From: Flavobacterium johnsoniae UW101
GTDB lineage: Bacteria > Bacteroidota > Bacteroidia > Flavobacteriales > Flavobacteriaceae
NCBI RefSeq assembly: GCF_000016645.1
Contig: NC_009441.1
Span: 5,022,001 to 5,086,000 of the forward strand
Direction of reading: 5' to 3'
DNA: 64,000 nt
The translations under genes and the position numbers were made by a program. Of the stretch, positions 5,647-27,523 are shown piece by piece; within the stretch, counting starts at the first letter, position 1, and every line of letters starts with the position of its first letter. The notes beneath the pieces are model-generated. The model was not told the DNA's origin and searched no databases. It was given only the letters and a program-made list of their open reading frames with translations.

Positions 5647-6816
5647 GTGAAAAAACATTTTTTATCAATCGCAATTCTGGCAGGAACTTTTACAGTTCAG
5701 TCTCAAAATAAAATTATTACGATCAGCAATAATTTAAAAACCGACAGAGAATTTGAAACTGTAGAACTAACAAAAAAAATTCTTGGATTAACAGCCAATT
5801 CAAAACTTGAAAATTATGCCGTTAAAGATCTTGGCAGTAATTCATTTTTAGAAACCCAGACTGTAGACAATGACGGAGACGGAACGGCAGATGTTTTGTT
5901 GTTTCAGCCAAAGATCAAAGCATCTTCTAAACAAGATTTTGAAGTTTTAGCTGGTACGAATCCTTCAGCTTCAAAAGAAATTAGCTGCTATTCACGCTTT
6001 GTTCCGGAACGTACAGACGATTATGCCTGGGAAAACAACAAAGTCGCTTTTAGAACTTATGGTCCTGTGGCTCAAAAAATGGTCGAGGATAAAATTCCCG
6101 GAGGTACTTTAACAAGCGGCATTGATGCGTGGCTGAAAAGAGTCGATTATCCAATTATCAACAAATGGTATGAAAAAGCCACTAACGGAACAGGAACGTA
6201 TCATAAAGATACTGGTGAAGGTCTGGATAATTTTCATGTTGGAGACAGCCGCGGTGTGGGCGGAATTGCAGTAAAAGTCGACGGAAAGTATTATTTCTCG
6301 AAAAATTTCATCAGCTGGAAAACGATTACGACCGGTCCAATCAGAACGAGTTTTATTTTAACTTATGCTGACTGGGACGCCAAAGGAAATAAAATAACCG
6401 AATCAAAATTAATCAGTTTAGATTACGGAAGCCAGCTTTCGCGCTTTGAAATCAATATTACAGGAACTAAGGAAATTGCTGCCGGATTAACACTTCATGA
6501 TAAAAAAGGAACAATTGGAACTAATTTAAAAGAAGGCTGGTTAAGCTATTGGGAACCTATTGATGATTCTGAAATAGGAACTGGTTTAGTGGCTCCAAAA
6601 AACACTTTGCTGAGTTTTGACCATCATGTAACAGATGAAAAAGATTTAAGCAATCTTTATGGAAACATTGCTGTAAAAAACAATAAAGCCGTCTATTATG
6701 TTGGTTTTGGATGGAAAAAAGGAAGTCCGTTTCAAACCAAACAAGAATGGGAAAAATATCTAAGTTCTTTTGCAGAAAAAATCAATAATCCATTGATTGT
6801 GAAGATTAAGAAATAA
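5647..6816 (+). CDS. secreted DUF4861-family protein of the glucuronate locus
   Basis: This 389-residue protein uses a GTG start at 5647; no in-frame ATG precedes the signal peptide, which ends FTVQSQ near residue 20. The rest matches the DUF4861 family: an N-terminal beta sandwich with the NDGDGTADVLLFQP loop, then a large beta-rich domain with conserved FRTYGPVA, GLDNFHVGDSRGVGG and FDHHVTDEKDLSN motifs that looks like a carbohydrate-active fold. Family members occur in pectin, ulvan and other uronate-glycan loci of Bacteroidota. A role on unsaturated uronate oligosaccharides is plausible, but the reaction cannot be assigned from sequence here. It is convergent with the LacI gene and opens the locus. 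Confidence 0.8.
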   Translation: MKKHFLSIAILAGTFTVQSQNKIITISNNLKTDREFETVELTKKILGLTANSKLENYAVKDLGSNSFLETQTVDNDGDGTADVLLFQPKIKASSKQDFEVLAGTNPSASKEISCYSRFVPERTDDYAWENNKVAFRTYGPVAQKMVEDKIPGGTLTSGIDAWLKRVDYPIINKWYEKATNGTGTYHKDTGEGLDNFHVGDSRGVGGIAVKVDGKYYFSKNFISWKTITTGPIRTSFILTYADWDAKGNKITESKLISLDYGSQLSRFEINITGTKEIAAGLTLHDKKGTIGTNLKEGWLSYWEPIDDSEIGTGLVAPKNTLLSFDHHVTDEKDLSNLYGNIAVKNNKAVYYVGFGWKKGSPFQTKQEWEKYLSSFAEKINNPLIVKIKK

Positions 6817-6826
6817 TAATCATTAC

Positions 6827-6901
6827 CCGCAGATTTTACGGATGAAACGGATTGATGCAGCTTATTTTAAAATAAACCTGCCTAATCCGTAAAATCTGTG
6901 G
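6827..6901. repeat. extragenic inverted repeat between DUF4861 and lacI-type genes
   Basis: 17-base arms at 6827-6843 and 6885-6901 match at 16 of 17 positions (the odd pair is G-U compatible). The arms carry the CGCAGATTT-type word found in other spacers of this window. It lies between convergent stops and may terminate both genes. Confidence 0.75.
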
Positions 6902-6912
6902 TTTAGATTAAA

Positions 6913-7911
6913 TCACTTCTTAGCAGGAAAATAATTTTCTTTTAAAATAATCTCAAGCGGAATATAATGTGTGCGTTCTGTATCTTCCTGCAGCACCAGT
7001 TTTTTATACAAATAATTAATTCCCATATAACCCTGATCTTCGGGTCTTTGATTAATTAAAAAATCAATAACGCCTTTATTTAGATATTCTATATTTTCCT
7101 TAAGTAAATCAAAACCAATAATTCGAACACCTTTTATATTGTTCTTTTCTAAAAATTCGGCCACAATATACGCTCGCGAATTGGGTACAAAAATGCTGTT
7201 TACCCCAGAAAACATTTCAAGATTCAGCTGGTCGATTCCGGAATCTTTTAAGGTGAATTCTGAAAAATTAAAATTCGTCAATTCATCGTGATCTTTAAAA
7301 TACGAATAAAATCCTTTAATTCTCTGCTGATAAACTGATGTACTTTCGATTTCGCGGGTAATTTTAAAAATCAAAACATGCCTTTCATTTTTAACGGCAA
7401 AGCTGATGAGCCTTCCGGCTAAATAACCACTCTGAAAAGCATTTTGACCCACATAAGCGTGTTCATTTTCTTCAGAAATATTCGAATCGATCATTACAAT
7501 CGGAATGTTTTTGCTTTCGTAATCTTTTAAAAACCGAACCGAATCTTCATAAAAAATAGGCGCAAACAACAAACCATCGCAGTCAAATTCCATTACTTTT
7601 TTGACAGATTCCTTAAAAGAAGCCAGATTATAATCGTAAAAGAAATAATCCAATACAATCCCGAATTTACCAAATTCCAAAGCCGCTTTTTCGATTCCGT
7701 CCGTCTGGCTCTGCCAATATTCCAAAGTTTCGGACTTAGGAAGAAAAACCGCAAAATGAAATTTTTTGTTTAAAGCCAGATTACTAGCCAGGATATTTCG
7801 CTTATAACCAAACTCTTCAATAATCGCATTAACCTTGTCTACAGTTTCCTGAGCCACCTGTCCGCGTTTATGAATAATCCTGTCAATAGTTCCGGGAGAA
7901 ACATTTGCCAA
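6913..7911 (-). CDS. LacI-family transcriptional regulator (start codon unclear)
   Basis: The body is a periplasmic-binding-protein-like ligand domain (about residues 40-330) after a LacI helix-turn-helix. The first canonical start is TTG at 7911, but it begins inside the HTH (ANVSPGTIDRIIHKRG) and drops helix 1. The frame stays open back to the stop at 7993-7995 and encodes the missing helix (ITIKKIAEL), yet that stretch has no ATG, GTG or TTG. Translation therefore probably starts at an ATA or ATC codon around 7933-7944, or the start codon was lost. Its place between DUF4861 and the divergent yhcH-uxuBA genes suggests it represses them in response to a uronate or an oligosaccharide; the operator candidate is at 8045-8058. 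Confidence 0.82.
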   Translation of the reverse strand: MANVSPGTIDRIIHKRGQVAQETVDKVNAIIEEFGYKRNILASNLALNKKFHFAVFLPKSETLEYWQSQTDGIEKAALEFGKFGIVLDYFFYDYNLASFKESVKKVMEFDCDGLLFAPIFYEDSVRFLKDYESKNIPIVMIDSNISEENEHAYVGQNAFQSGYLAGRLISFAVKNERHVLIFKITREIESTSVYQQRIKGFYSYFKDHDELTNFNFSEFTLKDSGIDQLNLEMFSGVNSIFVPNSRAYIVAEFLEKNNIKGVRIIGFDLLKENIEYLNKGVIDFLINQRPEDQGYMGINYLYKKLVLQEDTERTHYIPLEIILKENYFPAKK

Positions 7912-8006
7912 TTCGGCTATTTTTTTAATTGTTATGATATTGATTCTTTTTAAGTTAAAATAATAAAAGCTCCTTTGTAAAATTATATTTTTTTAGCAAA
8001 AATAAG

Positions 8007-8036
8007 TTGTTTTACATCACAATTTACATACATTTG
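8007..8036 (+). promoter_or_regulatory. promoter of the yhcH-uxuB-uxuA genes
   Basis: TACATTTG at 8029-8036 matches TAnnTTTG exactly, and TTG at 8007-8009 lies 19 bases upstream, the usual spacing for Bacteroidota promoters. Confidence 0.75.
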
Positions 8037-8044
8037 TAAAATAC

Positions 8045-8058
8045 CGTGTGCGTACACG
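8045..8058. promoter_or_regulatory. LacI-type operator candidate
   Basis: CGTGT-GCGT-ACACG is an inverted repeat with a central CG, the architecture expected for LacI-family operators. It begins 8 bases after the -7 element and so overlaps the predicted transcription start. The divergent neighbour is a LacI-type gene. Confidence 0.65.
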
Positions 8059-8146
8059 TAAAATTACACAAATTGTAAAAATAATTTTATTTTTTTGTAT
8101 TCTTTATTCAAAATACGCCTTAATAATCAAGATAAACTTAAACCAA

Positions 8147-8596
8147 ATGATAATAGATTCAGTACATAATGCAGCAAAATACTACAGACTGCATCCTAAT
8201 TTTCAAAAAGCTTTTGAATATGTAAACCAAACCGATATTGCCAGTCTTGAAGCCGGCGTTATTGAAATAAGCGAAGGTTTAAAATTAATCGTAATACACG
8301 GCGACGGAAGTTCGAGAGAAGAAAGTATAAAAGGATTTGAATGCCATGACAAAAACATTGACATTCAGATTTCGATACAAGGTCCGGAAACTTTTGCATG
8401 GAAACCAAGAGAAAAATGCATAAGCCCAAATGGAGATTACAGCGATGAAAAAGACGTTCGTTTTTTTCATGATAAACCAGATATGTTTTTTGAACTTCAG
8501 GAAAAACAATTTGCGATTTTATATCCAGAAGATGTTCACGCAGCCATGATTGGCGAAGGTTTTCTGAAAAAACTTGTTTTTAAAGTAAAAATTTAA
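8147..8596 (+). CDS. YhcH/YjgK/YiaL-family sugar anomerase-like protein
   Basis: This 149-residue protein of the YhcH/YjgK/YiaL family (DUF386) has a cupin-like jelly roll. The motifs EISEGLKLIVIHGDGSSREE, ECHDKNIDIQISIQGPE and FAILYPEDVHAAMIGEG are diagnostic; the histidines and glutamates in ECHDKNID and PEDVHA are likely metal ligands. The characterised relative NanQ (YhcH) speeds anomer interconversion of sialic acid, and YiaL acts in a sugar-acid pathway, so a uronate or keto-acid anomerase role fits the following uxuBA genes. An upstream in-frame GTG at 8048 lies in the operator; the ATG at 8147 is the normal start. It is the first gene of the yhcH-uxuB-uxuA unit. Confidence 0.85.
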   Translation: MIIDSVHNAAKYYRLHPNFQKAFEYVNQTDIASLEAGVIEISEGLKLIVIHGDGSSREESIKGFECHDKNIDIQISIQGPETFAWKPREKCISPNGDYSDEKDVRFFHDKPDMFFELQEKQFAILYPEDVHAAMIGEGFLKKLVFKVKI

Positions 8597-8677
8597 ATAG
8601 TAAACTAAACCATAACCATACTTTATTTTCCAAATTGGAATTTGGGATTTTAAAGTATTGAAAATTTAAACTAAAAA

Positions 8678-9490
8678 ATGGATTCAATATTCAATTTAAA
8701 AGGAAAAATTGCTCTGATTACGGGAGGTGCCGGAGTTTTAGGAAGCAATTTTGCAAATGTATTAGCAAAACAAGGTGTTATTGTGGGAATCGTTTCGCAG
8801 TCACTTGAAAAAGCCGAAAGCACTGTAAAAACTCTTGAAGCAAACGGCGGACAAGGTTTTGCGGTTCAGGCCAATGTTTTAAATAAAGAAGAAGTAGAAA
8901 AAGTAAGAGATTTTATTGTTGAAAAATACGGACGTCTTGATATTTTGATTAACGCAGCCGGCGGAAATATGCCCGGAGCGACTATCCAGCCAGATCAGGC
9001 AGTTTATGATATGAAAAGCGATGATTTACAAAAAGTAATCGATTTGAATATCATTGGAACCATGCTTCCTACTCAGGTTTTTGCAGAGTTATTTGCTAAA
9101 CAAAAACAAGGAAATATCATTAATATTTCATCTGCTTCGGCACAAAGACCTTTAACGAGAGTTGTAGGTTATTCGGCTTCAAAAGCGGCGATTGATAATT
9201 TCACGCAATGGATGGCAGTTGAATTAGCCCAAAAATATGGTGAAGGAATTCGTGTAAACGCTATTTCACCAGGTTTTTTCATTGGAGAACAAAATCGTGC
9301 TTTATTATTAACTCCGGAAGGAAAATTAACTCCAAGAGGTGAAAAAATCATCGATCACACGCCAATGGGAAGATTTGGAACTCCAGAAGATATTGATGGT
9401 GCACTTTTGTTTTTATGCAGCGATATGTCAAAATTCGTAACAGGAACTATCTTAAAAGTTGACGGCGGTTTTGCTGCAACAAGTATCTAA
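8678..9490 (+). CDS. uxuB: D-mannonate oxidoreductase (fructuronate reductase), SDR type
   Basis: This 270-residue short-chain dehydrogenase has the nucleotide loop GGAGVLGSN (near residue 17), NAAGG near 95, catalytic serine in NISSASA and the YxxxK pair in GYSASKAAIDN. It should reduce D-fructuronate to D-mannonate with NAD(P)H in the cytoplasm. This assignment rests on SDR-type UxuB of Bacillus and on the mannonate dehydratase gene 30 bases downstream, not on specificity residues; another sugar-acid reductase is possible. The enzyme links beta-glucuronidase products to the KDG pathway. Glucuronate isomerase and the KDG kinase/aldolase are not in the window. Confidence 0.8.
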   Translation: MDSIFNLKGKIALITGGAGVLGSNFANVLAKQGVIVGIVSQSLEKAESTVKTLEANGGQGFAVQANVLNKEEVEKVRDFIVEKYGRLDILINAAGGNMPGATIQPDQAVYDMKSDDLQKVIDLNIIGTMLPTQVFAELFAKQKQGNIINISSASAQRPLTRVVGYSASKAAIDNFTQWMAVELAQKYGEGIRVNAISPGFFIGEQNRALLLTPEGKLTPRGEKIIDHTPMGRFGTPEDIDGALLFLCSDMSKFVTGTILKVDGGFAATSI

Positions 9491-9520
9491 AAACTAACTC
9501 ACAAAACAACATAATACAAA

Positions 9521-10705
9521 ATGGAACAAACATTAAGATGGTTCGGACCAAATGATCCTGTTTCTTTACAAGATATTGCACAAACCGGAGCAACCGGAAT
9601 TGTAACAGCTTTACACCATATTCCAAACGGAGAAGTTTGGAGTATTGATGAAATTATCAAAAGAAAAGTTGAAATCGAACATCAGGACGGCGATCCTAAA
9701 AAAGGTGCTTCGGGATTAACGTGGTCAGTTGTAGAAAGTATTCCGGTTCATGAAGACATTAAAAAACAGACTGGAAATTACATTCAATACATTGAAAATT
9801 ATAAAGAAAGCATTCGTAATCTGGCTTTATGCGGTATCAAATGTGTGTGTTATAATTTCATGCCTGTTTTAGACTGGTCAAGAACTGATTTATCCTATAC
9901 CGTTGAAGACGGATCAAAAGCACTTCGTTTTGATATAAATGCATTTGCAGCTTTTGAATTGTTCATTTTAAAAAGACCAGGTGCCGAAAACGAATATTCT
10001 GATGAACAAAAACAAAAAGCAAAAAGCTATTTTGAGGCGATGACTGCCGAAGATAAAGTTAAATTGCAGCAGAACATTCTTGCCGGACTTCCGGGTGCCG
10101 AAGAAGCGTATACGGTTGAAGATTTCTTAGTAACCTTAAGTGCTTACAATCATATTGACAGACAGGCTTTAAAGAATAATCTTTTTCATTTTTTAAAAGA
10201 AATTGTTCCGGTTGCAGAAAGCAAAGGCGTTTTAATGGCAATTCATCCAGACGATCCTCCTTACCCAATTTTAGGCCTGCCAAGAGTTGTAAGTACCGAA
10301 GAAGATTTGATCGAGTTAATGAACGCTGCTCCTTCTAAATCAAACGGGTTTACAATGTGTACAGGTTCTTACGGTGTTCGTGCCGATAATGATTTACCGG
10401 GAATTGTAAGACGTCATGGCGATAAAATGAATTTCATCCATTTAAGAAGCACACAACGCGACGAAGAAGGAAGTTTTTATGAAGCCAATCACTTGGAAGG
10501 CGACGTTGATATGTACGAAGTTGTAAAAGCAATTCTTGAAGTTGAAAAAAGAAATAACAGCAAATTACCAATGCGTCCGGATCACGGACACCAAATGCTG
10601 GATGATTTAAAGAAAAAAACAAATCCGGGTTATTCTGCTATCGGCCGTTTAAGAGGACTGGCAGAACTGCGCGGACTGGAATTAGGGATCAAACGATCTT
10701 TATAA
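9521..10705 (+). CDS. uxuA: mannonate dehydratase
   Basis: This 394-residue protein has the same length as Escherichia coli UxuA and strong family signatures: the N-terminal [16 protein letters not shown], the [14 protein letters not shown] segment, the metal-site stretch MAIHPDDPP and the C-terminal [10 protein letters not shown]. It dehydrates D-mannonate to 2-keto-3-deoxygluconate in the cytoplasm using a divalent metal. It follows uxuB by 30 bases and is probably expressed from the promoter at 8007-8036. Its presence points to glucuronate rather than galacturonate as the uronic acid released by this locus, because galacturonate would go through altronate dehydratase. Confidence 0.95.
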
Positions 10706-10847
10706 TTGGTTTTGACACCAAGGCGCTGAGACCCAAAGTTTTTTATTTTTTTTAATCCTTTTAATCTGTGGCTAAAAAAACTTCGTGCCTTAGCGCGTTG
10801 GCGGCAAAATCAAACAAAAAACTAACTAACCACAAAAACCACAAACC

Positions 10848-12482
10848 ATGATTCGCCAAGCCATTATTATCTCCTGTGGCTTTTTTATGAATACCATATT
10901 GGCGCAGGAAATACCAAAAATTATTACTTCACCCAAAACTAATTATCTTCCGGATTTTAGTTATGCAGGCTATCATTTCGGCGAAAGCCCAATTCCTGAA
11001 ACTGCCGGAAAAATTATTAACGCTGCAGATTTTGGAGTAAAAGCCAATGACGAATTAGACGATTCAAAAGCACTTTTAAAAGCCTTTAAAGCAGCAAATG
11101 CTGTTGAAGGAAATGTAATTCTGCAATTGCCGGCAGGACGAATTATTTTAAGCGATATTTTATATATCGAACGAAGCAATTTTGTGCTTCGAGGCGCTGG
11201 TTCTAACGAAAACGGAACCGAAATTTACTGCCCAAGACCCATGATGTATCTTAAAGATTCTGAAGTTTTGGCTGAACTTCGCGAATACTTAACCACTTTT
11301 GATAAAAGACAACGCGAGCCAGAAAACAATATTGATCTTCCTTTTTCACAATATGCATGGTCAGGGGGTTTTATCTGGACGCAGGTTCCAGGCGAACGTG
11401 TAAAATCGTATTTGGATAAATATGAACCAGAATCCAGTCCGTTGGCGAAAGTCAGTTCAGGGAAAATGGGCGAACATATTATTACGGTTTCGGATGTAAA
11501 AGGATTGAAAGTTGGTGATGTTGTAGAACTGCAATTGTTTAATAAAGACGGCGAAAACGGCGAAATTATCAACGATCTATATCAGGGAGCTAAAGTAAAA
11601 CCAGGTTCACATCATTGGAAATTTCCCAAACTTCCTATTGTGAGACAGCAGGTTGAAATAACCAAAATCTCTGGCTCTAAAATCACTTTAAAAACACCTT
11701 TAACCATTTCAATAAAACCAAGTTATCAGGCGCAATTAGTCGAATGGAAACATTTAAATGAAGTTGGAATCGAACATCTTCGTTTTACCTTTCCTGATAT
11801 TCCCAGAGTCGCGCATCATGTTGAACCCGGAAATAACGGTATTTTCCTGACGCGTCTTTTTAACAGCTGGGTTAAAGATGTCAAAATCACAAATGCAGAC
11901 AGCGGCATTCTTGCCGAAGAAGTTTCTAACGTTACCATTCAGGATATTACAACCGATGGATCGCATTTATCGCATTACACGGTAACATTAGGCGGTGTAC
12001 ATAATATTTTGGTTAAGAATTTGAAAATTTACAATTCTGCCGTTCACCCATTAAGTTTCAACACTTTTGCTACTAAAAATGTCTATCAAAACTGTGAAAT
12101 ATTTACAGATCCTGTTTTAGATCAGCACTCGGGAGCCAATCATCAAAATTTATTTGATAATATTACGGTTCATGTAAAAGCCAATAAAAACAATAGTTAC
12201 GCATTGTTTGGCGGCGGAGGCGCTGATTACTGGAAACCTTCTCACGGACCTTTCAGTACTTTTTGGAATTTAAATGTTCAGGTTGAAAATCCAGATACAT
12301 CAAAACCCGTTTTATTGTACGGAATGAAAGACGGCGCTTTAGCCAGAATTATTGGTGTTCACGGAAATGCAAAATTTGAAATCAAATACGACATTGATCC
12401 CTACATTGAATTTTTAAACATGCCAATTGAGAAGATTCCTTCGCTGTATGATTATCAATTAAATAAACGTTTGAAAAAATAA
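10848..12482 (+). CDS. secreted right-handed beta-helix protein, candidate polysaccharide lyase
   Basis: This 544-residue protein has a signal peptide (residues 1-20, ending TILAQ). The segment NAADFGVKANDELDDSKALLKA is the pectate-lyase-3-type start of a parallel beta-helix, and repeated strand motifs (VEIEH, VKDVKITNADSG, VTIQDITTDG, ILVKNLKIYNSA, KNVYQNCEIF) extend to about residue 440. A conserved block with histidine and asparagine, QHSGANHQNLFDNI, lies near residues 427-440. No named polysaccharide-lyase family is recognised, but it is the only lyase-like gene in this locus and the GH88 enzyme needs unsaturated uronates as substrate. The lyase role is inference. The gene starts after a 140-base repeat-bearing spacer behind uxuA. 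Confidence 0.75.
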   Translation: MIRQAIIISCGFFMNTILAQEIPKIITSPKTNYLPDFSYAGYHFGESPIPETAGKIINAADFGVKANDELDDSKALLKAFKAANAVEGNVILQLPAGRIILSDILYIERSNFVLRGAGSNENGTEIYCPRPMMYLKDSEVLAELREYLTTFDKRQREPENNIDLPFSQYAWSGGFIWTQVPGERVKSYLDKYEPESSPLAKVSSGKMGEHIITVSDVKGLKVGDVVELQLFNKDGENGEIINDLYQGAKVKPGSHHWKFPKLPIVRQQVEITKISGSKITLKTPLTISIKPSYQAQLVEWKHLNEVGIEHLRFTFPDIPRVAHHVEPGNNGIFLTRLFNSWVKDVKITNADSGILAEEVSNVTIQDITTDGSHLSHYTVTLGGVHNILVKNLKIYNSAVHPLSFNTFATKNVYQNCEIFTDPVLDQHSGANHQNLFDNITVHVKANKNNSYALFGGGGADYWKPSHGPFSTFWNLNVQVENPDTSKPVLLYGMKDGALARIIGVHGNAKFEIKYDIDPYIEFLNMPIEKIPSLYDYQLNKRLKK

Positions 12483-12483: not shown

Positions 12484-12636
12484 TTTAAACACATAGAAAC
12501 ATAGCTTTTAAGAGCGTAAAAAGGCGTTTCACTTGCATAAAAAATCATAGGTTTTGCGTGAAAGCTATGTGTGAAAAACTAGTTTTTTTAAAGTCTTGTT
12601 TATAAAAAGAAAAATCTATGTTTCTATGTGTTTAAA
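12484..12636. repeat. long extragenic palindrome with perfect 21-base arms
   Basis: Arms at 12484-12504 and 12616-12636 are perfect reverse complements built from the words ACATAG and AAACA. The loop holds a second pairing (AGCTTTT-type and GTGAAAGCTATG). The repeat begins three bases after the beta-helix stop codon. Confidence 0.85.
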
Positions 12637-12736
12637 AATTAATCTCGCAAAGCCGCTAAGTCGCAAAGGGAAAATTAAAAAAGAAAACTTTTGCTACTCT
12701 GCGAGAAACTCAATTCACAACATAAATCTGTGCGCT

Positions 12737-15700
12737 ATGAAACTTAAAATAGCTCTTTTATTATTTGTCTTTGTTTCCGGGAATTTGTTTTCCCAAAATA
12801 AATACCGACTTAAAAACTTTTCTACTACAGACGGACTTTCGCAGAGTTCTGTTATTGCCATTCATCAGGATAAATTTGGGCAGATGTGGTTTGGAACCCG
12901 CGATGGTCTAAATAAATACGATGGCAGCCGATTTACTATTTTCAGGAATGAAGCTTCTAATAAATATTCAATCAGCAACAATGATATTTTAGCAATTGAA
13001 GAAGACAACTCGGGAAAAATCTGGGTAGGAACTTACAATGGACTAAACTGTTACGATCCTGTTTCAAATCGTTTTACAAGATATCTTCATACCAAAACCA
13101 ATCATACAATAAGCAATAATGCTGTTTGGAGTATTAAGGAAATTGGCGCCGAAATGTGGTTTGGAACTTCAAAAGGACTAACGATTTACAACAAAAAATC
13201 GGGATTGTTTACTTCAGTTTTTCATTCAGATGATGATGCTTCTACTCTTCCAAGTAATAATATTTTAAGCATTATAAAAACCAAAAATGGAGCTGTCTGG
13301 ATTGGAACAACAAAAGGACTGTGTCAGTTAACTAGTCGAAAAAACGGAAAATTAAGTTTTAAAAATTATCAGTTAAATGCGTCTGATTTATTAAACGTAC
13401 AATCGGTAATCGAAGAAAAAGACGGCAGTTTATGGGTGGGAACAAAAAACAAAGGACTTTTAAAATTTGATCAAAAACAAAAATCTTTTGTTTCTTTTTT
13501 ATCAGCCGAAAAATACCGCGAAATAAATACTGATATCCGCTCATTAGTAATTGACAACCAAGGTTCTTTGTGGATTGGAGCTTACGACGGAATTTATATT
13601 TTGGGACAAGATAAAAGTCTGCAGAAAATTAACAATACCAATAACAACAACGGAATCGACAAAGTAAAGTCGGTTTTTATGGATAAAAAAGGGTCGATCT
13701 GGATTGGCTGTTATTACAAAGGCGTAAACCTTTGGGATATTTCAAACGTAAATTTCTCCAACTACAATCAAAATTCGAAAAAGATTCCGATGAGTTTTGA
13801 TGTCGTGAGTTCTATTATTTCAGATAAAAACCAGAATATTTATTTTGGAACTGAAGGCGGCGGAATTACAATTTTCAATAAAAATACCGAAGCTGTAAGC
13901 TACATCAACAGCAAAACCGGACAAACCAATAAAAATGATATCAAAGCAATGTGTCTTTCTGACGATCATATTTTATGGTTTGGAACTTTTTCAAAAGGAT
14001 TATCAGCTTACAATACGGTTTCGAAACGAATTGAAGACAACAGAATTACTCCTGACTTAACCGAATTTTTAAAGGAAAGCGGTGTTTATTCGCTTAAAGC
14101 AGAAAATAAAATTTTATGGATTGGAACTTTTGGAAAAGGCTTAATTCGTTACGATACCGAGAACAAAAAATTTGAGATTATTGGCAATGACAACACTAAA
14201 CCCGTTTTCCTGACCAATAATATGGTTCGCAGTATTTTAATCGATAAACAAAATTCAATCTGGCTGGGAACACAAAATGGTTTGAATCGTATTTCACTTC
14301 GAAATTTCAATCCTAAAAAATATACGATACAGCATTTCTTTTACAACCACTCTTCTTTGTCCGGTGATGATATTCTGACTTTGTTTGAGGATTCTCAAAA
14401 TAAAATCTGGGTTGGAACAAAAGCAAAAGGTTTGTATTATTTTGATGGAAAAAAATTCAGCCAAATCAATCTTAGAATCGGAAATACCATCATTACTTCT
14501 ATCCACTCTATTTTAGAAGATGACGATAAAAACCTTTGGATCAGTACAAATCAGGGAATTATTAAATACAGTACAATTAAAAAGACGGTTGTAATTTATG
14601 ACCAAAAAGACGGTTTGGCAAGTAATGAATTTAATGATAATTCGGCTTTAAAATTAGGATCAAATCAATTTTATTTCGGAAGTCCTTCGGGCGCAACGTT
14701 TTTTGATGCAGCCAAAATTTCCTTAAACAATTATGCACCTCAGGTTTTAATTACTAATTTAAAAATTAAAAACGAAACCGTAAATGCGCATGATAAAGAC
14801 GGCATTTTAGAGCAGAGCATTGGTTTTACCAACACCATTACTCTGGATTATGACAAAGCGAATTTCTCGATTAGTTTTGCGATTCCAAATTACATTCGAT
14901 CAAAAAACAACCAATACAGTTATCGTTTAACTGGTTTAGAAAATAACTGGACGACAACTAAAAACAGCGAAGCCAATTTTGCAATTCAAAATCCTGGAAC
15001 TTATACATTTGAAGTCCGCGGCGCAAATAATGACGGAGTATGGAATCAAACTCCAACTACTTTAACGGTAATTGTAAATCCGGCTCCGTGGCGCAGTATC
15101 TGGGCATTTTTATTGTACGGAATCGTGATTGGTTTGGGCTTATGCGGTTTAATCTGGATTATGAAATCGAAAGCCAGACTGAAACAAAAACTTGAACTGG
15201 AATATTTGGAAACGCAGCGAATTGAAGAAAACAACAAATTAAAACTGGATTTCTTTACCAATATTTCACATGAATTCAGAACGCCTTTGACCCTTATTTT
15301 AGGTCCGTTACAGCAAATTCTGGCCGATTATAACGGAACCAATGAAATGTATAAAAAACTTCTGGTTATTGAAGGAAGCGCGAATCATTTACTGAGTCTG
15401 ATTAACCGTTTAATGGATTTTAGAAAACTGGAAAATCATCAGGTTACGCTGGAATCTGCAAACGGAAATATTGTAAAATTTACCAAAGAAATCTTTTTGT
15501 CGTTTATTGAATATGCTAAAGACGGCGGTTACGATTATAGTTTTGAAACCGAAAACGAAGAAATTCTGGTTTATTTTGACCGTTACAAACTCGAGCGTGT
15601 GTTTTACAATTTGATATCAAATGCTTTTAGATATACTCCAAAAGGCGGTTCGATTAAAATTAAAATCAATCACGACCAGCAGAATCTGTTTATTGCTGTC

Positions 15701-20000: not shown

Positions 20001-20046
20001 TCCAAACGTAAGAACATTTACAGCAGGATTCAATTTAAAATTTTAA
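17044..20046 (+). CDS. SusC-type TonB-dependent outer-membrane glycan transporter
   Basis: This 1,000-residue protein has a signal peptide ending VMHAQ (about residue 28), a carboxypeptidase-regulatory-like domain (about 32-105), a TonB-box region DEVIVVGYGT, a plug domain with the SusC signature ATAIYGSRGSNGVIMVTTKKGK (about 215-240), and a long beta-barrel ending in the aromatic GFNLKF. It imports oligosaccharides across the outer membrane with the SusD lipoprotein encoded 16 bases downstream. A competing ATG four bases upstream (17040) starts an 11-codon out-of-frame ORF; the 17044 start gives a proper signal peptide. The HTCS just upstream is its likely activator. Confidence 0.95.
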   Translation: MCTDRKIKSFKWCLLVSFLLVNIVMHAQERKVTGKITSSEDLLGLPGANVYIKNSSVGATADMDGNYTVIVGEKNAVLVFNFVGFQTVEIPVGTKSIINVSLKPDTKALDEVIVVGYGTRKKSDITGSISSVTAKELTSFPVLNAEQALQGRAAGVSVMTNNGGEPGAPVKIRVRGGTSINASGDALVVVDGFAGVSMPAPQDIASIEVLKDASATAIYGSRGSNGVIMVTTKKGKVGKPVIEFSNSTSVQSVNNKLHLLNADQFAAYRKSFTTHTQGPANTDWQDVIYRDGMISNTQLSFSGGSENVRYYVSGTYFNQNGVVINSGIDRYTIVSNLEADLSPKLKVGLNTFTSKQNKEGIISQTGAGGTGAAGVIAAAYRFMPDKGIYNEDGTYTTTAPIGDDIDNPYATAMENILETVSIVNRNNFFAQYQITKDLDFKTTLGLTDNNSQTGRFIPSTLIAGKNIKGEASVNNTRFSSFLTENYLTFKREVISKGMLTVLAGYSYQKNKNENSYAASRGFLTNTNSYRNLGAGTVFLKPDSGLSETELISAFGRLNFDYDDKYLFTFTARRDGSSSFSQNYKYGTFPSGAVGWNIGKENFLKDSKTVSNLKLRASYGATGNPSIGAYSTLSRFSEIYYVSGDVITNAVQLTSLDNPNLKWETSYQQDYGIDLGLFDNRISITADYYKTITKDLLFNRPLPGVSGIASQLQNVGELENKGWELGITSRNFTGPDFTWSTNFNISSNKNKVLKLADNKDLLINSAPGHFLATESQILRVGQPVGSFFGFIYDGVIQQGETVLPGNFETAPGGEKFRDVNGDGKLDSQDKTIIGNPNPDFIFGFNNDFTYKNLDLNIFFQGSQGNQILNYTLMELASGNNNATTEVLDAWTPTNTDTNVPANAARTKRITSRFVYDGSYIRLKNVSLGYSLDEKVVSKLGLSKVRFYISAQNLWTITNYPGSDPETNYLNDTNSRSNTNLGLDYGGYPNVRTFTAGFNLKF

Positions 20047-20061: not shown

Positions 20062-21582
20062 ATGAAAAAATATATAGCTTTTCTTTGCTTCGGAACACTC
20101 GCTTTTTTCAGCTGTTCTGATCTGGAAGAAAAACCGGTAGGAATTATTCGTCCGGCGAACTTCTTTAACAATACAGACGATTTGCAGGCCGCTGTAAATG
20201 GTGCTTTTGCAAACATTGCCCATAATAATTACTGGGGAAGAGAATTTACAATTGCTTTAATGCTTCGCGATGACATGGCCGATATTGGCGACAGAACAAC
20301 TCAGGCTGCGCGTATCGATGTAAACGATATGTCTATGAATGATACCAACGCGCTTGTAGCAAACTTTTGGCCGCAATCGTATGTTATCATTACAGCCGCT
20401 AATCAGGCAATTGAAGGTGCTAAAAAAACACCGGGAGATCCTGCAAAAGTTAACGCAATTGTAGCTCAGGCTTATTTTGCAAGAGCATTTACATATTATC
20501 ATTTAGTGCGTCTTTTTGGAGACATTCCCTACATTGATTTTGTCGTAAACGATGTTTCTCAGATCAATTCTATGAGCAAAACCAAAGAAGCAGATGTATA
20601 TCCAAAAATCATTGCCGATTTAGAATTTGCAAAACAATGGCTTGAAGATAAACCAAAAGTAAAAGCTGTTCCGGGTAAAGGCACCGCGGCTGGATATTTA
20701 GCATCTGTTTACCTGACTTTAGGAAATTTCCAGAAAGCATACGACGAAGCTAAATATGTAATTACAAACGAAACAAAATTTGGTTTAGGTTTAGATGCTG
20801 ATTTTCAGGATTTATTTAACGCTACAAAAACGGCATCTTTAAAAGAACCGCTTTTTACAGTTGATTTTAACAACTTAACATCAGGAAATTACGGCCAGGA
20901 TTATACCGCGTTTTTTACAGGATCTTTAAAAGATGACAGTTATAGTTACGGGCAAGGATTCTCGGTTGCAGTTCCTTCCTTAAAAGTATTTAATACCTGG
21001 GATCAAAGAGATTACAGAAGAGCAGTAAGTTTTGATACCATTATTAGAAAGAAAACTGGTCCGGGCGGTGCTTTACAGGTTTATCCTTCAAGCGACAACG
21101 AAAAAGCGCCGCGTCCGCATATTGCCAAATATTTCCGTTTTCCGGGAAAAGCAGGTGCTAACGGAAGAACTTCTCAGCACAACTACATTACAATGCGTTT
21201 TGCCGAAGTTTTATTAACAGCTGCAGAAGCATTAAACGAAATCACTCCGGGAACTACAGAAGCAGATGGTTATGTAAACCGTGTTCGTGCCAGAGCCAGA
21301 AACAAAGCTGGAAAACTGGTTTCTTTTCCGGCAAACGTAACTCCGGGACTTTCTCAGGCCGATTTTAGAAAAATGGTTATTGACGAAAGAAGATTAGAAC
21401 TGGCATTTGAATATGTAAGATGGTACGATATTAAAAGACTTAAAATTGGTTTAGAAGTTTTTGGTCCGTCTGGTTTAGAACCGCACGCTAATTTCGATCC
21501 AAACAAAGATTATTTATGGCCGTTACCAGGAACAGAATTGGCTATTAACCCAAATTTAAAACCAAATAATCCTGGTTATTAA
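20062..21582 (+). CDS. SusD/RagB-family surface glycan-binding lipoprotein
   Basis: This 506-residue protein begins with a lipoprotein signal (FFSC lipobox, cysteine near residue 18). TPR-like helices (ANQAIEGAKK, AYFARAFTYYHLVRLFGDIPY, TAAGYLASVYLTLGNFQKAYDEA) and the C-terminal YLWPLPGTELAINPNLKPNNPGY are diagnostic of SusD. It caps the SusC barrel on the cell surface and captures the glycan. It starts 16 bases after the susC stop and is part of the same transcript. The glycan specificity cannot be read from the sequence. The spacer behind it carries two nested inverted repeats, which may lower expression of the following enzymes. Confidence 0.95.
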   Translation: MKKYIAFLCFGTLAFFSCSDLEEKPVGIIRPANFFNNTDDLQAAVNGAFANIAHNNYWGREFTIALMLRDDMADIGDRTTQAARIDVNDMSMNDTNALVANFWPQSYVIITAANQAIEGAKKTPGDPAKVNAIVAQAYFARAFTYYHLVRLFGDIPYIDFVVNDVSQINSMSKTKEADVYPKIIADLEFAKQWLEDKPKVKAVPGKGTAAGYLASVYLTLGNFQKAYDEAKYVITNETKFGLGLDADFQDLFNATKTASLKEPLFTVDFNNLTSGNYGQDYTAFFTGSLKDDSYSYGQGFSVAVPSLKVFNTWDQRDYRRAVSFDTIIRKKTGPGGALQVYPSSDNEKAPRPHIAKYFRFPGKAGANGRTSQHNYITMRFAEVLLTAAEALNEITPGTTEADGYVNRVRARARNKAGKLVSFPANVTPGLSQADFRKMVIDERRLELAFEYVRWYDIKRLKIGLEVFGPSGLEPHANFDPNKDYLWPLPGTELAINPNLKPNNPGY

Positions 21583-21806: not shown

Positions 21807-21851
21807 ATAACATTTTAGTATAGAAACTAAAAATAAAGATTAATTAGTAAT

Positions 21852-23042
21852 ATGAATAAAGTTAGTTTCATTTTAATCCTTGGGTTTGCATCGCTTGCAA
21901 CAGCATGCAAATCTGGGGTTAATCCTCAAACAAAAAGTACAACGGCGACAAATAATTTACTTGAAACGCGTTACAAAATGCTCCTCGATTATCCAGTCGA
22001 TTCTATGTCGATGCCGAGAAGTATGAATATTAAAACCCTTGAGATTCGCAAAGTACCGTCGAGAGACTGGACCAGCGGTTTTTTTGCCGGAAACCTTTGG
22101 CAGTTATACCGTCTTACAGGCGATTCTAAATACAAAGAACAAGCTCAAAAATGGACTCCTTTCAGTAAAAAGGAAAGTGTTAATAGTAATTCGCATGACG
22201 TAGGTTTTAAAGTGTTTTGCAGTTTTGGAGAAGCGCTGAAAGTGGAAAACAAGAAAGACTATGAAGCCGTAATTGTTAAAGGCGCCGAAACTTTATGCAC
22301 AAGGTTTAATCCAAAAGTGGGTTCAATTCGTTCTTGGGATTTCAACAAGGAAATTTGGGATTATCCGGTAATCATCGACAATATGATGAATCTGGAACTG
22401 CTTTTTGAAGCATCTAAAATATCAGGAAATCCAAAATACCGTGACGTTGCTGTTAAACACGCTAATACAACATTGAAAAATCAGTTTAGAGAAGACAATT
22501 CATGTTACCACGTTATCGATTATAATCCAAATACTGGTGAAGTTAGAAAGAAAACCACACTTCAGGGTTATAACGACGATTCGGTTTGGGCTCGCGGTCA
22601 GGCTTGGGCAGTTTACGGATTTACAATGTCATACCGATATACCAAAGATCCGGCCTATTTAAAACAAGCCGAAGGAACAGCAAAGTTTTTTATGACCAAT
22701 AAAAACCTTCCGGAAGATGGAATTCCGTATTGGGATTTTAAAGATCCAAGTATTCCAAATGCGGCACGAGATGTTTCGGCTGCAATGGTTATGGCATCTG
22801 CACTATATGAGTTATACGGCTATACCCAAAATAATAGTTATTTGGCTTTCGCCGATAAGCTGATGGCTTCGGTACAAACCGACAAATATGTTCTAGATAC
22901 TAAAATCAAAGCGCCGTTTTTATTTGATCACAGTACCGGAAACTGGCCGAAACATGACGAAATTGACGAACCAATAATCTACGCCGATTACTATTTTCTG
23001 GAAGCATTAATAAAGGTGCAAAGGCTCAAAGGTTCAAAGTAA
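21852..23042 (+). CDS. GH88 unsaturated glucuronyl hydrolase, lipoprotein
   Basis: This 396-residue protein has a lipoprotein signal (LATAC, C19), so it is membrane-anchored, probably facing the periplasm. The catalytic aspartates of GH88 are seen at D116 (SHDVGF) and D176 (IDNMMN), 60 residues apart as in Bacillus unsaturated glucuronyl hydrolase (D88/D149). It hydrates and releases the 4,5-unsaturated uronate left at the non-reducing end by a lyase. GH105 is a related alternative, but the SHD and IDNMMN pattern favours GH88. The last codons (QRLKGSK) are encoded by the left arm of an intergenic repeat, with the stop in the loop. Confidence 0.92.
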   Translation: MNKVSFILILGFASLATACKSGVNPQTKSTTATNNLLETRYKMLLDYPVDSMSMPRSMNIKTLEIRKVPSRDWTSGFFAGNLWQLYRLTGDSKYKEQAQKWTPFSKKESVNSNSHDVGFKVFCSFGEALKVENKKDYEAVIVKGAETLCTRFNPKVGSIRSWDFNKEIWDYPVIIDNMMNLELLFEASKISGNPKYRDVAVKHANTTLKNQFREDNSCYHVIDYNPNTGEVRKKTTLQGYNDDSVWARGQAWAVYGFTMSYRYTKDPAYLKQAEGTAKFFMTNKNLPEDGIPYWDFKDPSIPNAARDVSAAMVMASALYELYGYTQNNSYLAFADKLMASVQTDKYVLDTKIKAPFLFDHSTGNWPKHDEIDEPIIYADYYFLEALIKVQRLKGSK

Positions 23043-23073
23043 CAAAGGTTTTTAATCTTTGAACCTTTGAGCC
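23023..23073. repeat. palindrome overlapping the GH88 stop codon
   Basis: Perfect 17-base arms (23023-23039 and 23057-23073, GGCTCAAAGGTTCAAAG) flank the GH88 TAA at 23040-23042. It may act as terminator or mRNA stabiliser between GH88 and the first GH2 gene. Confidence 0.85.
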
Positions 23074-23086
23074 AGAAAAACCTTTG

Positions 23087-23118
23087 AACCTTTGTAACTA
23101 TGAACCTTTGTAACTATG
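23087..23118 (+). repeat. 16-bp tandem duplication that includes the GH2 start codon
   Basis: AACCTTTGTAACTATG occurs twice in direct succession (23087-23102 and 23103-23118). The second copy ends in the ATG of the GH2 gene; the first copy supplies an out-of-frame ATG at 23100. Confidence 0.9.
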
Positions 23119-25527
23119 AATAAAACGAATAAAACTTTTTCAATTTTTGCGCTTTTTGTTTTTTTTCAGATTTGTCTGAGCAGCAGTTTTGCTCAGACAA
23201 AGATGAATATTAACGACAACTGGCTTTATTTAGAAAATCATACTCCAAACCTTACCGAAGCGCAAAAAGCTTCTAACTGGGTTTCTCTGAACTTACCGCA
23301 TACCTGGAATGCCGAAGATGCAACCGATTTAGTTCCGGGGTACAGGCGCGATGCAAGCTGGTATCAAAAAAAATTAAATATCACACAGATCGACAAAAAC
23401 AAGGTTTATTCCTTATACTTTGAAGGATCAAACGTAACGACCAAAGTTTATGTAAACGGTAAAGAAGCCGGATCACATATTGGCGGATATATTGGTTTTT
23501 CAATCGATATTACAAATTTGATTAAGGAAGGAAATAATGAGATTTTTGTTCGTGTGGACAATAGTTATGATATCGAAATTATCCCGTCTCAAAAAAGTGA
23601 TTTCTTTATTTACGGCGGTATCACGCGCGATGTCTGGCTGGTTTCAAAATACAAAAATCATATCGAGAATATAAAGATTACAACTCCGGAAGTTTCTGCT
23701 AAAAAAGCTTCGGTGCAAATTGTTTCTTCTTTTGTAAATCCAGATAATTCAAAAGACTTATCATTGACGGTTACTTTAAAAAATCCGAAAGGCAAAAAAA
23801 TAGCAAGCAAAACAATTCCTGTTACTGATAAAAATTCGACCATCACTTTTGAAAATATCAAAAACCCAGAACTTTGGGATACAGAAAATCCGAATTTATA
23901 CAAACTGACCGCTGTTTTATCTGAAAAAAATCAAATTAAAGACAGCGTTGCGGAAAAAGTAGGTTTTAGATGGTTTGAATTTAAAGATCATGGTCCATTT
24001 TACCTTAACGGAAAACGTCTGCTTATTCGCGGTACACACCGTCATGAAGAACAAGCCGGAGTTGGCGCTGCCATGAGCAACGAACAGCATTGGGCAGATA
24101 TGAAATCAATAAAAGAAATGGGTGCAAATTTTGTCCGTTTAGCCCATTATCCGCAAGATCCCGAAGTTTATAAAGCCTGCGACGAGTTAGGTTTATTGGT
24201 TTGGGATGAACTTCCCTGGTGTCGCGGCGGTATTGGTAATGAGGTTTGGAAAACCAATACTAAAAATATGCTGGCCGAGATTATCGACCAAAATTACAAT
24301 CATCCAAGTATTATTATCTGGTCTTTAGGAAACGAAATGAACTGGCTTCCTGATTTTCCTGATGGTGATAATCCAGAAAAAACAAATGTGTTTTTAACTG
24401 AATTAAATGACATCGCTCATAAACTCGATCCTACAAGAAAAACGGCTATTAGAAAATATTATGAAGGTTCTCATATTGTAGATGTTTTCTCGCCGTCAAT
24501 CTGGTCAGGATGGTATTCTGGAAGTTACAAAAGTTATCAAAAAGCAATTAACGTTTATAAAAAAGAATACAAGCATTTTATTCATGCTGAATATGGCGGA
24601 GACAGCCATGTAGGCCGTCACAGTGAAAATCCGGTTACGGGTGAAAATGTGATTAAAGCTGAAGGCTGGGAAGAAGCGATTGTTCAGACTAAAGTTGCAA
24701 ACATTGCTCAAATTGGCGATTGGAGCGAAAATTATATAGTCGATTTATTTGACTGGCATTTGCATATATCCGAGAATGACCCGGCGTTTGTGGGTAATGT
24801 ACAATGGGCATTTAAGGATTTTGCAACGCCGTTACGTCCGGAAGATGATATTCCGTACATGAATCAAAAAGGACTTACTGATCGAAACGGAATTCCGAAA
24901 GATGCGTATTATGTTTTTAAAAGTTATTGGGCAAAAGAACCTTTCACTTATATTGAATCGCATACCTGGACAGAGCGTCAGGGACCTGAAAATACAGCGA
25001 GAACGATCAGTGTTTTCAGTAACTGTGATAAAGTAACTTTATCTCATAACGGAAAATCATTAGGAGAAAAACAGCGAAATCTTTCTCTCTATCCGGCAAA
25101 TGGCTTAACTTGGGATGTCAATTTTACAAAAGGTGAAAATGTTCTAATTGCTGTTGGAAAAACGAAAGAAGGAAAAACGGTTTCTGATACGCTGAAAGTT
25201 AATTATCGTTTTAATAAAAATGATACGGCGGTTTCATTACAATTATCATCAGAAAAGCTGAAAAACGGCAATTATCTGGTAACCGCAATTGCAGTTGACA
25301 ATAATAATTTGCGCTGTCTGGATTATGAAGCGAGTGTTTATTTTCAATGTTTAAAGGGAGGAAAAACACTAAAAAATCAAGGAACACCAACCGGAAGCGA
25401 ATCCATAAAAATGGCAAATGGAAAAGCTTCTATAGAAGTTATTCCTGATGGTTCTAATAATCCAATCGAAATGACGGCTTTGAACCAAAGCTTTAAAGGA
25501 GAATATTTGAAGATTCCAGTTGAGTAA
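23116..25527 (+). CDS. secreted GH2 enzyme with beta-glucuronidase signature
   Basis: This 803-residue protein has a signal peptide (to SSSFAQ, about residue 27). GH2 domains in order are sugar-binding jelly roll (about 30-180), immunoglobulin-like domain (185-290), TIM barrel (295-600) and a C-terminal beta-sandwich extension (about 615-803). Acid/base is E407 in SLGNEMNW and nucleophile E492 in HAEYGGD. N583 and K585 (NQKG) align with the N-x-K pair that recognises the uronate carboxylate in bacterial beta-glucuronidases, so beta-glucuronidase is favoured over beta-galactosidase. The long C-terminal extension resembles large Bacteroidota GH2 enzymes. It follows GH88 within a repeat-filled 73-base gap. 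Confidence 0.85.
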   Translation: MNKTNKTFSIFALFVFFQICLSSSFAQTKMNINDNWLYLENHTPNLTEAQKASNWVSLNLPHTWNAEDATDLVPGYRRDASWYQKKLNITQIDKNKVYSLYFEGSNVTTKVYVNGKEAGSHIGGYIGFSIDITNLIKEGNNEIFVRVDNSYDIEIIPSQKSDFFIYGGITRDVWLVSKYKNHIENIKITTPEVSAKKASVQIVSSFVNPDNSKDLSLTVTLKNPKGKKIASKTIPVTDKNSTITFENIKNPELWDTENPNLYKLTAVLSEKNQIKDSVAEKVGFRWFEFKDHGPFYLNGKRLLIRGTHRHEEQAGVGAAMSNEQHWADMKSIKEMGANFVRLAHYPQDPEVYKACDELGLLVWDELPWCRGGIGNEVWKTNTKNMLAEIIDQNYNHPSIIIWSLGNEMNWLPDFPDGDNPEKTNVFLTELNDIAHKLDPTRKTAIRKYYEGSHIVDVFSPSIWSGWYSGSYKSYQKAINVYKKEYKHFIHAEYGGDSHVGRHSENPVTGENVIKAEGWEEAIVQTKVANIAQIGDWSENYIVDLFDWHLHISENDPAFVGNVQWAFKDFATPLRPEDDIPYMNQKGLTDRNGIPKDAYYVFKSYWAKEPFTYIESHTWTERQGPENTARTISVFSNCDKVTLSHNGKSLGEKQRNLSLYPANGLTWDVNFTKGENVLIAVGKTKEGKTVSDTLKVNYRFNKNDTAVSLQLSSEKLKNGNYLVTAIAVDNNNLRCLDYEASVYFQCLKGGKTLKNQGTPTGSESIKMANGKASIEVIPDGSNNPIEMTALNQSFKGEYLKIPVE

Positions 25528-25570
25528 AAAAGGTTCTAAGCTGCTAAGGGACTAAGGTGCTAAGTTTTAT

Positions 25571-25643
25571 GTTTCACGCAGATTTTGCAGATTGAGCAGA
25601 TTTAATTTTGATCTGCTTAAATCTTTTTAAATCTGCGTGAAAC
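25571..25643. repeat. extragenic palindrome (GTTTCACGCAGATTT family)
   Basis: Perfect 15-base arms at 25571-25585 and 25629-25643, with a second internal pairing around AGCAGATTTAA/ATCTGCTTAAAT. CTAAGG-type direct words precede it at 25534-25566. Confidence 0.8.
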
Positions 25644-25726
25644 AAAATCATTTTAATCCTTATAATCTGCGGCTATAAATAAAAATCTCCGTGGCAAGTA
25701 CAAACAAATACAAATTAATACCAAAA

Positions 25727-27523
25727 ATGAAAAAACTATTAACTGCATTACTCCTAACTTCTTCTATTCTAGGATTTGCACAAAATTTAATCTCCAATGT
25801 ACCAAACCGAAACACAACTTCTTTAAACGGAGTTTGGAATTATATTATCGATCCGTATCAAACGGGTTTTTACAGCTTTCACTTAGATCAATACGATAAA
25901 AATGAAAAACCGGCAAAAGGGGCATTTTTTAGTAATTATCATACTCAAAATAAACAGGAACTGGTAGAATATGATTTTGATAAATCGCCCACAATTAATA
26001 TCCCAAGCGATTGGAATTCGCAGGTTGCGGAGCTGAAATATTACGAAGGAAATGTTTGGTTTAAAAAATCATTTGATTATAATTTAAAAGATAAAAAACG
26101 TCTGTTTTTATACTTAGGAGCCATTAATTATAAAGCTGATGTGTATTTAAACGGAAAAAAACTCGGCACACATGAAGGCGGCTTTACACCATTTAATTAT
26201 GAAGTAACTTCGATTGTACAGCCAAAAGGCAATTATTTGGTAATAAAAGTGGATAATACACGCCATAAAGAAGATGTGCCGACTGTTAATACTGACTGGT
26301 GGAATTACGGAGGCATTACGCGCGATGTGACTTTAATTGAAGAAGAAGCTTCTTTTGTGGAAGATTATACTATTCAGCTGAAAAAAGGCAATAAATCGGT
26401 TATTTCCGGTTTTATTAAAATCAATAATTTTGATGCTTCACAAAATAATATTTCGATTTCTATTCCTGAATTAAAAATCAATTTTAAAGGAAAAGCGGAT
26501 GCTCAGGGAATTTTAAATTTCGAAATTCCTGCGAAAAAAATCTCGTATTGGTCGCCTGAAAGTCCGAAATTATATGATGTAACGATTGACTTTAACGGAC
26601 AAAAATTAAAAGATCAAATTGGTTTTAGAACTATCGAAACAAACGAAGATAAAATTCTGCTTAATGGAAAACCTGTTTTCTTAAGAGGAATTTCAATTCA
26701 CGAAGAAAATGCCAAAGGCGGCCGCGCTAATTCTGTTGAAGATGCTTTGCGTTTATTAAACTGGGCAAAAGAAATGGGATGTAATTATGTTCGTCTGGCA
26801 CATTATCCGCATAACGAAAACATCATTCGCGAAGCTGATAAAATGGGAATAATGGTTTGGGAAGAAATTCCAGTATACTGGACTGTAGAATTTACAAACA
26901 AAAACACGTATCAAAATGCCGAAGATCAATTAACTACTTCTATTACAAGAGATAAAAACAGAGCCAGTATTATTATTTGGTCAATGGCAAATGAAACACC
27001 AATTTCTGAAGCCAGAAATACTTTCATCAAAAATTTAGCATCACACACGAGATCATTAGACAATACGAGATTAATCAGCGCTGCTTTATTAACAAAAAAA
27101 GAAACTATTGATGATCCAATTGGTGAAGTTTTAGATGTTGTGGCTTTCAATCAATATTTAGGCTGGTACGGCGGTAATTTAGAAGATGCTGAGAAAATAA
27201 CATGGAAATCGAAATATAATAAACCTATTGTTGTTTCTGAATTTGGCGGTGATGCGAAAGCTGGTTTTCATGGAGAAAAAAATGAGCGCTGGACTGAGGA
27301 ATATCAGGAATACCTATATATTCAGAATTTAAAAATGATTGAAAAAATCCCGCATCTAAGCGGTACAAGTCCTTGGATTCTGGTCGATTTTAGATCTCCA
27401 AAAAGATTACTTCCGGGAATTCAGGACGGTTACAACCGTAAAGGTTTAATTTCAAATGACGGTGAAAAGAAAAAAGCTTTTTATATTATGCAGGATTGGT
27501 ACTTGAAGAAGAGCAAAGAGTAA
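25727..27523 (+). CDS. secreted GH2 beta-glucuronidase
   Basis: Start at ATG 25727 gives a clean signal peptide (MKKLLTALLLTSSILGFAQ) and 598 residues, close to the 603 of Escherichia coli UidA; the in-frame GTG at 25691 lies in repeat DNA. Domains are GH2 sugar-binding, Ig-like and TIM barrel. Acid/base is E423 (MANETP) and nucleophile E505 (SEFGGD). FNQYLGWYGGNLEDAEK matches the UidA segment around NRYYGWY. N570 and K572 (YNRKGL) match the uronate-recognising N-x-K pair of UidA (N566/K568). It should release beta-linked glucuronate from oligosaccharides in the periplasm, feeding UxuB and UxuA. The C-terminal KKSKE tail runs into purine-rich repeat sequence. Confidence 0.88.
   Translation: MKKLLTALLLTSSILGFAQNLISNVPNRNTTSLNGVWNYIIDPYQTGFYSFHLDQYDKNEKPAKGAFFSNYHTQNKQELVEYDFDKSPTINIPSDWNSQVAELKYYEGNVWFKKSFDYNLKDKKRLFLYLGAINYKADVYLNGKKLGTHEGGFTPFNYEVTSIVQPKGNYLVIKVDNTRHKEDVPTVNTDWWNYGGITRDVTLIEEEASFVEDYTIQLKKGNKSVISGFIKINNFDASQNNISISIPELKINFKGKADAQGILNFEIPAKKISYWSPESPKLYDVTIDFNGQKLKDQIGFRTIETNEDKILLNGKPVFLRGISIHEENAKGGRANSVEDALRLLNWAKEMGCNYVRLAHYPHNENIIREADKMGIMVWEEIPVYWTVEFTNKNTYQNAEDQLTTSITRDKNRASIIIWSMANETPISEARNTFIKNLASHTRSLDNTRLISAALLTKKETIDDPIGEVLDVVAFNQYLGWYGGNLEDAEKITWKSKYNKPIVVSEFGGDAKAGFHGEKNERWTEEYQEYLYIQNLKMIEKIPHLSGTSPWILVDFRSPKRLLPGIQDGYNRKGLISNDGEKKKAFYIMQDWYLKKSKE

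Follow-up and report, generated by a model that had tools for sequence, protein, structure and literature searches.

A block of 13 genes in Flavobacterium johnsoniae UW101 is, with a probability that we put at roughly 0.6, a conserved Flavobacterium polysaccharide utilization locus (PUL) for a glucuronic-acid-rich polymer, in which a right-handed beta-helix protein of the PL29 superfamily is the lyase that opens the chain, and GH88 and GH2 enzymes finish the oligomers. The block lies in a window of 64,000 nucleotides (the whole stretch analyzed, positions 5022001-5086000 of the closed 6.1-Mb genome; coordinates below are those of the window unless the genome is named). The gene order is DUF4861, LacI (opposite strand), YhcH, UxuB-type short-chain dehydrogenase/reductase (SDR), UxuA, beta-helix, hybrid two-component sensor-regulator (HTCS), SusC, SusD, GH88, GH2a, GH2b and DUF2911. 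Family calls were made by Pfam and NCBIfam profile scans of these 13 locus proteins. A preliminary description of this DNA had read it as a glucuronate-glycan locus; its open reading frames were found at the coordinates that it gave, and its calls of GH88, two GH2 enzymes with a glucuronidase signature, UxuB/UxuA and an HTCS-SusC-SusD set were all confirmed by the profiles and the NxK motif. That reading is supported, with the product of 10848-12482 as the likely chain-cleaving lyase. The support rests on gene content, conservation, homology, co-inheritance and predicted fold, and it is from these that we infer activity and substrate.

The same description had seen no recognizable polysaccharide lyase family in the locus. 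This fails, as the beta-helix protein (10848..12482, + strand) is a distant homolog of PL29. Pfam gives it no PL29 name; the homology is seen with the NCBIfam BT3328 model (NF058554; 104.6 bits, E 4e-30, in two partial stretches and below the cut-off of 1100) and by profile-profile comparison, in which hhalign aligned it with a PL29 set at probability 100 and E 2.2e-49 over 456 columns (27% identity), spanning the entire catalytic domain. The PL29 set comprised five proteins found with the NF058554 model, BT3328 itself not being among them. Five histidines (His323, His324, His376, His400 and His427) are invariant in 11/11 aligned rows and His466 is kept in 10/11, the five being candidate functional residues in common with PL29; Asp425 is a further residue marked in this protein. 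The two groups also share LPDFSYAGY-like N-terminal and SLYxxQLxxRL C-terminal motifs. They differ in that the beta-helix protein has DQHxGxNxQN, as well as an Arg500 at a position gapped in the PL29 rows, and in that it is without the N-terminal extension that the BT3328-type comparison protein L192 has (886 aa, 1246.7 bits against NF058554), although the PL29-like proteins of loci L046 and L047 lack it too. In a tree made by a quick method and rooted at its midpoint, a split with full support separates the five PL29-type rows from 86 beta-helix rows, and the beta-helix clade is further set apart by its ties to polyuronate loci.

The AlphaFold2 model is a beta-helix with a mean confidence (pLDDT) of 96.3. 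A fold search matched it to GH28 polygalacturonases, AlgE-type epimerases and lyases alike, and so did not separate lyase, hydrolase and epimerase; on fold alone, PL31 or AlgE membership was also considered. Sequence searches of the PDB gave weak matches (best E 0.019), and of 24 matches in a PDB profile search those shown cover short segments within the N-terminal beta-helix region. The N-terminus looks exported. Taken together, the protein is a distant PL29-superfamily member and probably the chain-cutting enzyme of the locus. The preliminary description had held that placement in a characterized lyase family with a known substrate would tell against its reading; PL29-superfamily membership was indeed found, but the homology is remote, and the PL29 substrate therefore cannot be transferred to this protein.

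Within a 395-genome sample of the phylum the beta-helix protein occurs in 20 genomes, whereas the BT3328 cut-off is passed in one, by L192 alone. The clade was seen in Flavobacterium, marine Bacteroidota, Ignavibacteriota, KSB1, Marinimicrobia and some Pseudomonadota records. Among the 120 homologs listed, named entries are nearly all Flavobacterium, the exceptions being [Flexibacter] sp. ATCC 35103 and one compost metagenome. In the literature searched, nothing was found that treats this clade as a family of its own.

The order from DUF4861 through LacI, YhcH, SDR, UxuA, beta-helix, HTCS and SusC to SusD is kept in all six close Flavobacterium contexts fetched, and GH88-GH2a-GH2b-DUF2911 in all seven downstream stretches, one of them with an inserted gene. 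Because gene order recurs in both sets, the block is not a chance grouping. PL38 was not found by tblastn in those seven stretches. Farther afield the block is less constant: L170 (Flavobacterium sp. LHD-80) keeps beta-helix, HTCS, GH88, GH2a and DUF2911 without SusC, SusD or GH2b, and L134, L143, L149, L151 and L188 have no SusC/SusD between HTCS and GH88. Across 150 Flavobacterium genomes an orthologous GH88 gene is present in 37, the beta-helix gene in 36 and both in 36 (the ortholog threshold, E <= 1e-130, is a gap in the table picked after viewing). The GH88-only exception, G408, is an 88% complete genome in about 270 contigs, and in 14 further genomes the GH88 relatives are all more distant (51 genomes in total at E <= 1e-60). 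One beta-helix copy, in G538 (G538:C243:13958-15247), carries six in-frame stops. One Flavobacterium relative has an extra PF14099-like gene between its two GH2 genes (L216:6378-7235; 29.5 bits, cut-off 29.9); PF14099 neighbors could not be assigned to a lyase family.

The GH88 protein, a predicted unsaturated glucuronyl hydrolase (21852..23042, +), scores 61.8 bits against PF07470 (cut-off 26.6) and has 3wiw as its closest solved structure (E 9e-89). It keeps HD at 115-116 and IIDN at 174-177, and D116 and D176, presumably the catalytic aspartates, align to the UGL aspartates. Both GH2 proteins contain NxK (N583-Q-K and N582-R-K), which we take to be the uronate-recognition motif of GH2; neither reaches the curated GUS equivalog cut-offs. 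GH2a (23116..25527, +) is beta-glucuronidase-like and nearest to 6d7j (E 6e-188). GH2b (25691..27523, +) is beta-glucuronidase/galacturonidase-like, nearest to 6d1n and to 7vqm, labeled a beta-galacturonidase, and may prefer glucuronate or galacturonate. Further on in catabolism, the UxuB-type SDR (D-mannonate oxidoreductase; 8678..9490, +) scores 377.5 bits against a cut-off of 281 and the mannonate dehydratase UxuA (9521..10705, +) 580.8 against 199.55. UxaC (genome 5148315-5149697) and KduI (genome 5150533-5151357) are encoded about 62-65 kb past the window, so the glucuronate and unsaturated-uronate routes each have an enzyme. The genome has no match to PF05426, PF07940 (which we take to be the PL17-type C-terminal domain) or PF14592, while controls were detected, so the substrate of GH88 does not come in trans from lyases with these domains; PL8 was undecidable in this search, and PL7 and PF14099 were not part of it.

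Relatives of the locus were compared in a pooled set of 88 loci, made up of 80 from a scan of named genomes (the best 80 of 256 confirmed) and eight others (L038-041, 043, 044, 046, 047); L042, L045 and L030-035 were left out, and L036 and L037 are the same contigs as L113 and L111. Since the search for loci started from the beta-helix gene and each was trimmed at 10 kb, absences are lower bounds; each cluster label is that of one scanned representative, the largest cluster also including PL6-type proteins. GH88 is present in 58/88. Loci with GH88 differ from those without it in HTCS (51/58 vs 2/30), UxuA (32/58 vs 4/30), GH2a (28/58 vs 4/30), DUF4861 (20/58 vs 0/30) and one sulfatase cluster (12/58 vs 1/30); differences for KduI (9/58 vs 1/30, p 0.15), UxaC (14/58 vs 4/30, p 0.28), PL38 (20/58 vs 7/30, p 0.34) and PL17 (3/58 vs 6/30, p 0.057) are not significant at 0.05. 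Four loci titled Klebsiella, Rhizobium or Chitinophaga (L133, L155, L162, L182) have flavobacterial-type gene order and group with Flavobacteriaceae in the tree; they are probably misbinned metagenome-assembled genomes.

The slot after GH88-GH2a, occupied here by GH2b, is filled by PL38 in 18/26 pooled loci, one of the 26 being cut off by the end of its stretch. This neighbor cluster is PF05426, and its representative matches 3nfv (E 6e-55) and 8bdq (E 6e-44), the latter being, we assume, BoPL38. PL38 is a different family from the beta-helix protein, but in five proteins tested (P0146, P0178, P0218, P0234, P0239) the two are fused, with 44-49% identity in the beta-helix part and 32-48% in the PL38 part. 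Three others tested (L038, L041, L043) have a PL6-like N-terminus ahead of the beta-helix, 35-41% identical to a PF14592 protein (E 4e-92 to 3e-90), and deep relatives of the beta-helix gene neighbor PL17, PL6, HepII/III-type and alginate-lyase genes. According to PMC13027841, four PL38 enzymes had been characterized before RiPL38, of which two cleave alginate and two glucuronan; RiPL38 itself is active on hyaluronan and chondroitin sulfate. No paper was found, in the literature searched, on a PUL combining glucuronidase, GH88, GH2 and PL38.

Family or motif marks all three glycosidases of the block as uronidase-like, and in relatives the beta-helix protein is replaced or joined by polyuronate lyases; a glucuronan-type chain is therefore our first guess and the single likeliest substrate. 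Given the sulfatase and alginate links seen among relatives, other uronate polymers may be served instead. Arabinogalactan, suggested earlier, gains no support, no galactanase-type domain having been found in the 13 locus proteins. In the pathway that we propose, the exported beta-helix protein would cut the chain by beta-elimination and SusC/SusD would import the oligomers; GH88, going by its family, would take unsaturated glucuronate off the newly made ends, and ordinary beta-linked glucuronate would be removed by the GH2 pair. The unsaturated sugar would then pass through KduI, perhaps with help from DUF4861, and glucuronate through UxaC, the UxuB-type SDR and UxuA. More tentatively, and with slightly less than even confidence, we suggest that the beta-helix proteins form a lyase family of their own, a sister of PL29, with polyuronates, pure or mixed, and not hexosamine-uronate chains as substrates. 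In the Flavobacterium lineage of the window such a protein would be the sole depolymerase of a glucuronan-type PUL, and in relatives it would work beside PL38 and PL6 or fused to them.

Could the protein instead have kept PL29 specificity, with an unsulfated glycosaminoglycan-like substrate such as hyaluronan, chondroitin or a bacterial heparosan/chondroitin-type capsule? BT3328 (PL29) is described as a surface endo-lyase on chondroitin sulfate, dermatan sulfate and hyaluronan, accompanied by GH88 and an HTCS in the Bacteroides thetaiotaomicron chondroitin locus (PMC9067506), and the locus in the window resembles that chondroitin/hyaluronan PUL (BT3324-BT3350) in its SusC/SusD, HTCS, GH88 and PL29-type lyase (PMC9067506, PMC12877422). 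The activity of RiPL38 points the same way, as does L047, where a PL29-like protein occurs with GH88, HTCS, DUF4861 and a nearby sulfatase. We nevertheless consider this unlikely. The 13 locus proteins contain no hexosaminidase domain, no sulfatase, as the preliminary description had said (the sulfatase search covered these proteins only), and no PL8 (for which genome-wide absence could not be claimed); the two uronidase-like GH2 enzymes and UxuB/UxuA mark a further difference from the B. thetaiotaomicron PUL. The beta-helix protein also lies outside the PL29 rows in the tree, in a clade linked to PL6, PL17 and PL38 genes. Those links raise the case for an alginate-type lyase and a locus for the breakdown of alginate or of a chain that contains mannuronate: alginate operons of Bacteroidota and their kin (PL17, PL6, PL7, KdgF) include or adjoin relatives of the beta-helix gene, an alginate-induced operon is reported with two genes labeled 'PL29 chondroitinases' and with GH88 among its alginate genes (PMC13274419), and Woeseiaceae alginate PULs are reported to contain PL29 as labeled in that paper (PMC12175321); our Woeseiaceae locus L174 encodes a beta-helix protein of the window type. 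Yet PL17, PL6 and PL7 lyases were not found among the locus proteins, the genome-wide searches described above found no PF05426, PF07940 or PF14592, and PL17 is in only three of the 58 GH88-bearing neighborhoods, while UxuA and the UxuB-type SDR, joined in some relatives by UxaC and KduI, mark a glucuronate route. Alginate is accordingly an improbable substrate.

The fold matches would also suit a hydrolase or uronate C5-epimerase, in which case a different enzyme, or an outside source, would provide the unsaturated ends on which GH88 acts. Both the sequence homology and the histidine set in common, however, point to PL29, a lyase family, and co-inheritance with GH88 in 36 of 37 genomes argues likewise for a lyase, so that we doubt this explanation about as much as alginate. 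The other chain-cleaving candidate named earlier, the DUF4861 protein (5647..6816, +), found no support and is very unlikely to be the lyase. It belongs to the NCBIfam BT3233 family (407.5 bits, cut-off 320), with a signal-peptide-like start by eye and a mutarotase-like beta-sandwich in its model; a PDB profile search gave a best E of only 0.08, and the literature searched yielded no papers on DUF4861, DUF4955 or BT3233. In 30 stretches picked around DUF4861 matches, 20 (a union counted by eye) have a KduI or PF07470 (GH88/GH105-type) gene, pectin loci included, and a second DUF4861 gene of this genome (L048:6015-7301, genome 5092024-5093202) lies beside GH28. On this gene context it was set aside as main lyase: since it goes with enzymes for unsaturated uronates whether the locus is for pectin or for glucuronate, it probably handles unsaturated uronates and is not the chain-cleaver. 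The second copy has a SASA esterase nearby and, with a PL11 rhamnogalacturonan lyase at 55340-57190, suggests pectin loci just downstream.

As to regulation of the proposed PUL, an inverted repeat, CGTGTGCGTACACG (8045..8058, no strand), lies between LacI (6913..7911, -) and the anomerase-like YhcH/YiaL (DUF386) gene (8048..8596, +), whose true start is probably downstream (the protein has 149 aa in most relatives). It occurs once in the window and, in either orientation, once in each of the 21 Flavobacterium loci first chosen; in the pooled set a looser form, CGTGTnnnnACACG, is found in 17/18 loci bearing this LacI (15 with the exact site) vs 2/70 without it. This distribution fits a LacI operator, although the loci compared are related to each other. 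LacI with its own operator would control the catabolic genes, and the HTCS (12596..16828, +; true start probably later) would sense oligomers. Five of the six close contexts have a gene of 220-221 aa between YhcH and SDR, a KDPG (2-keto-3-deoxy-6-phosphogluconate) aldolase in the one scanned, that is absent from the window (8597-8677) and from L031. The SusC-like TonB-dependent transporter (17044..20046, +) and SusD-like glycan-binding protein (20062..21582, +), with regulator and carbohydrate-active enzymes, form the set that defines a PUL. The DUF2911 gene (27679..28242, +) is its conserved downstream edge, after which the opposite strand carries a xanthine/aldehyde dehydrogenase-type enzyme with its molybdopterin and FAD subunits (28399-31589).

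The layout of the locus is thus that of an ordinary PUL, and its probable depolymerase comes from a sister branch of PL29. Known PL29 enzymes are from gut Bacteroides, with host glycosaminoglycans as their substrates, and the apparently larger sister clade would extend the family to environmental polyuronates. It would also identify a depolymerase for a locus that 36 of the 150 Flavobacterium genomes sampled contain, and would be a warning that genes of alginate operons labeled 'PL29 chondroitinase' may be misnamed.

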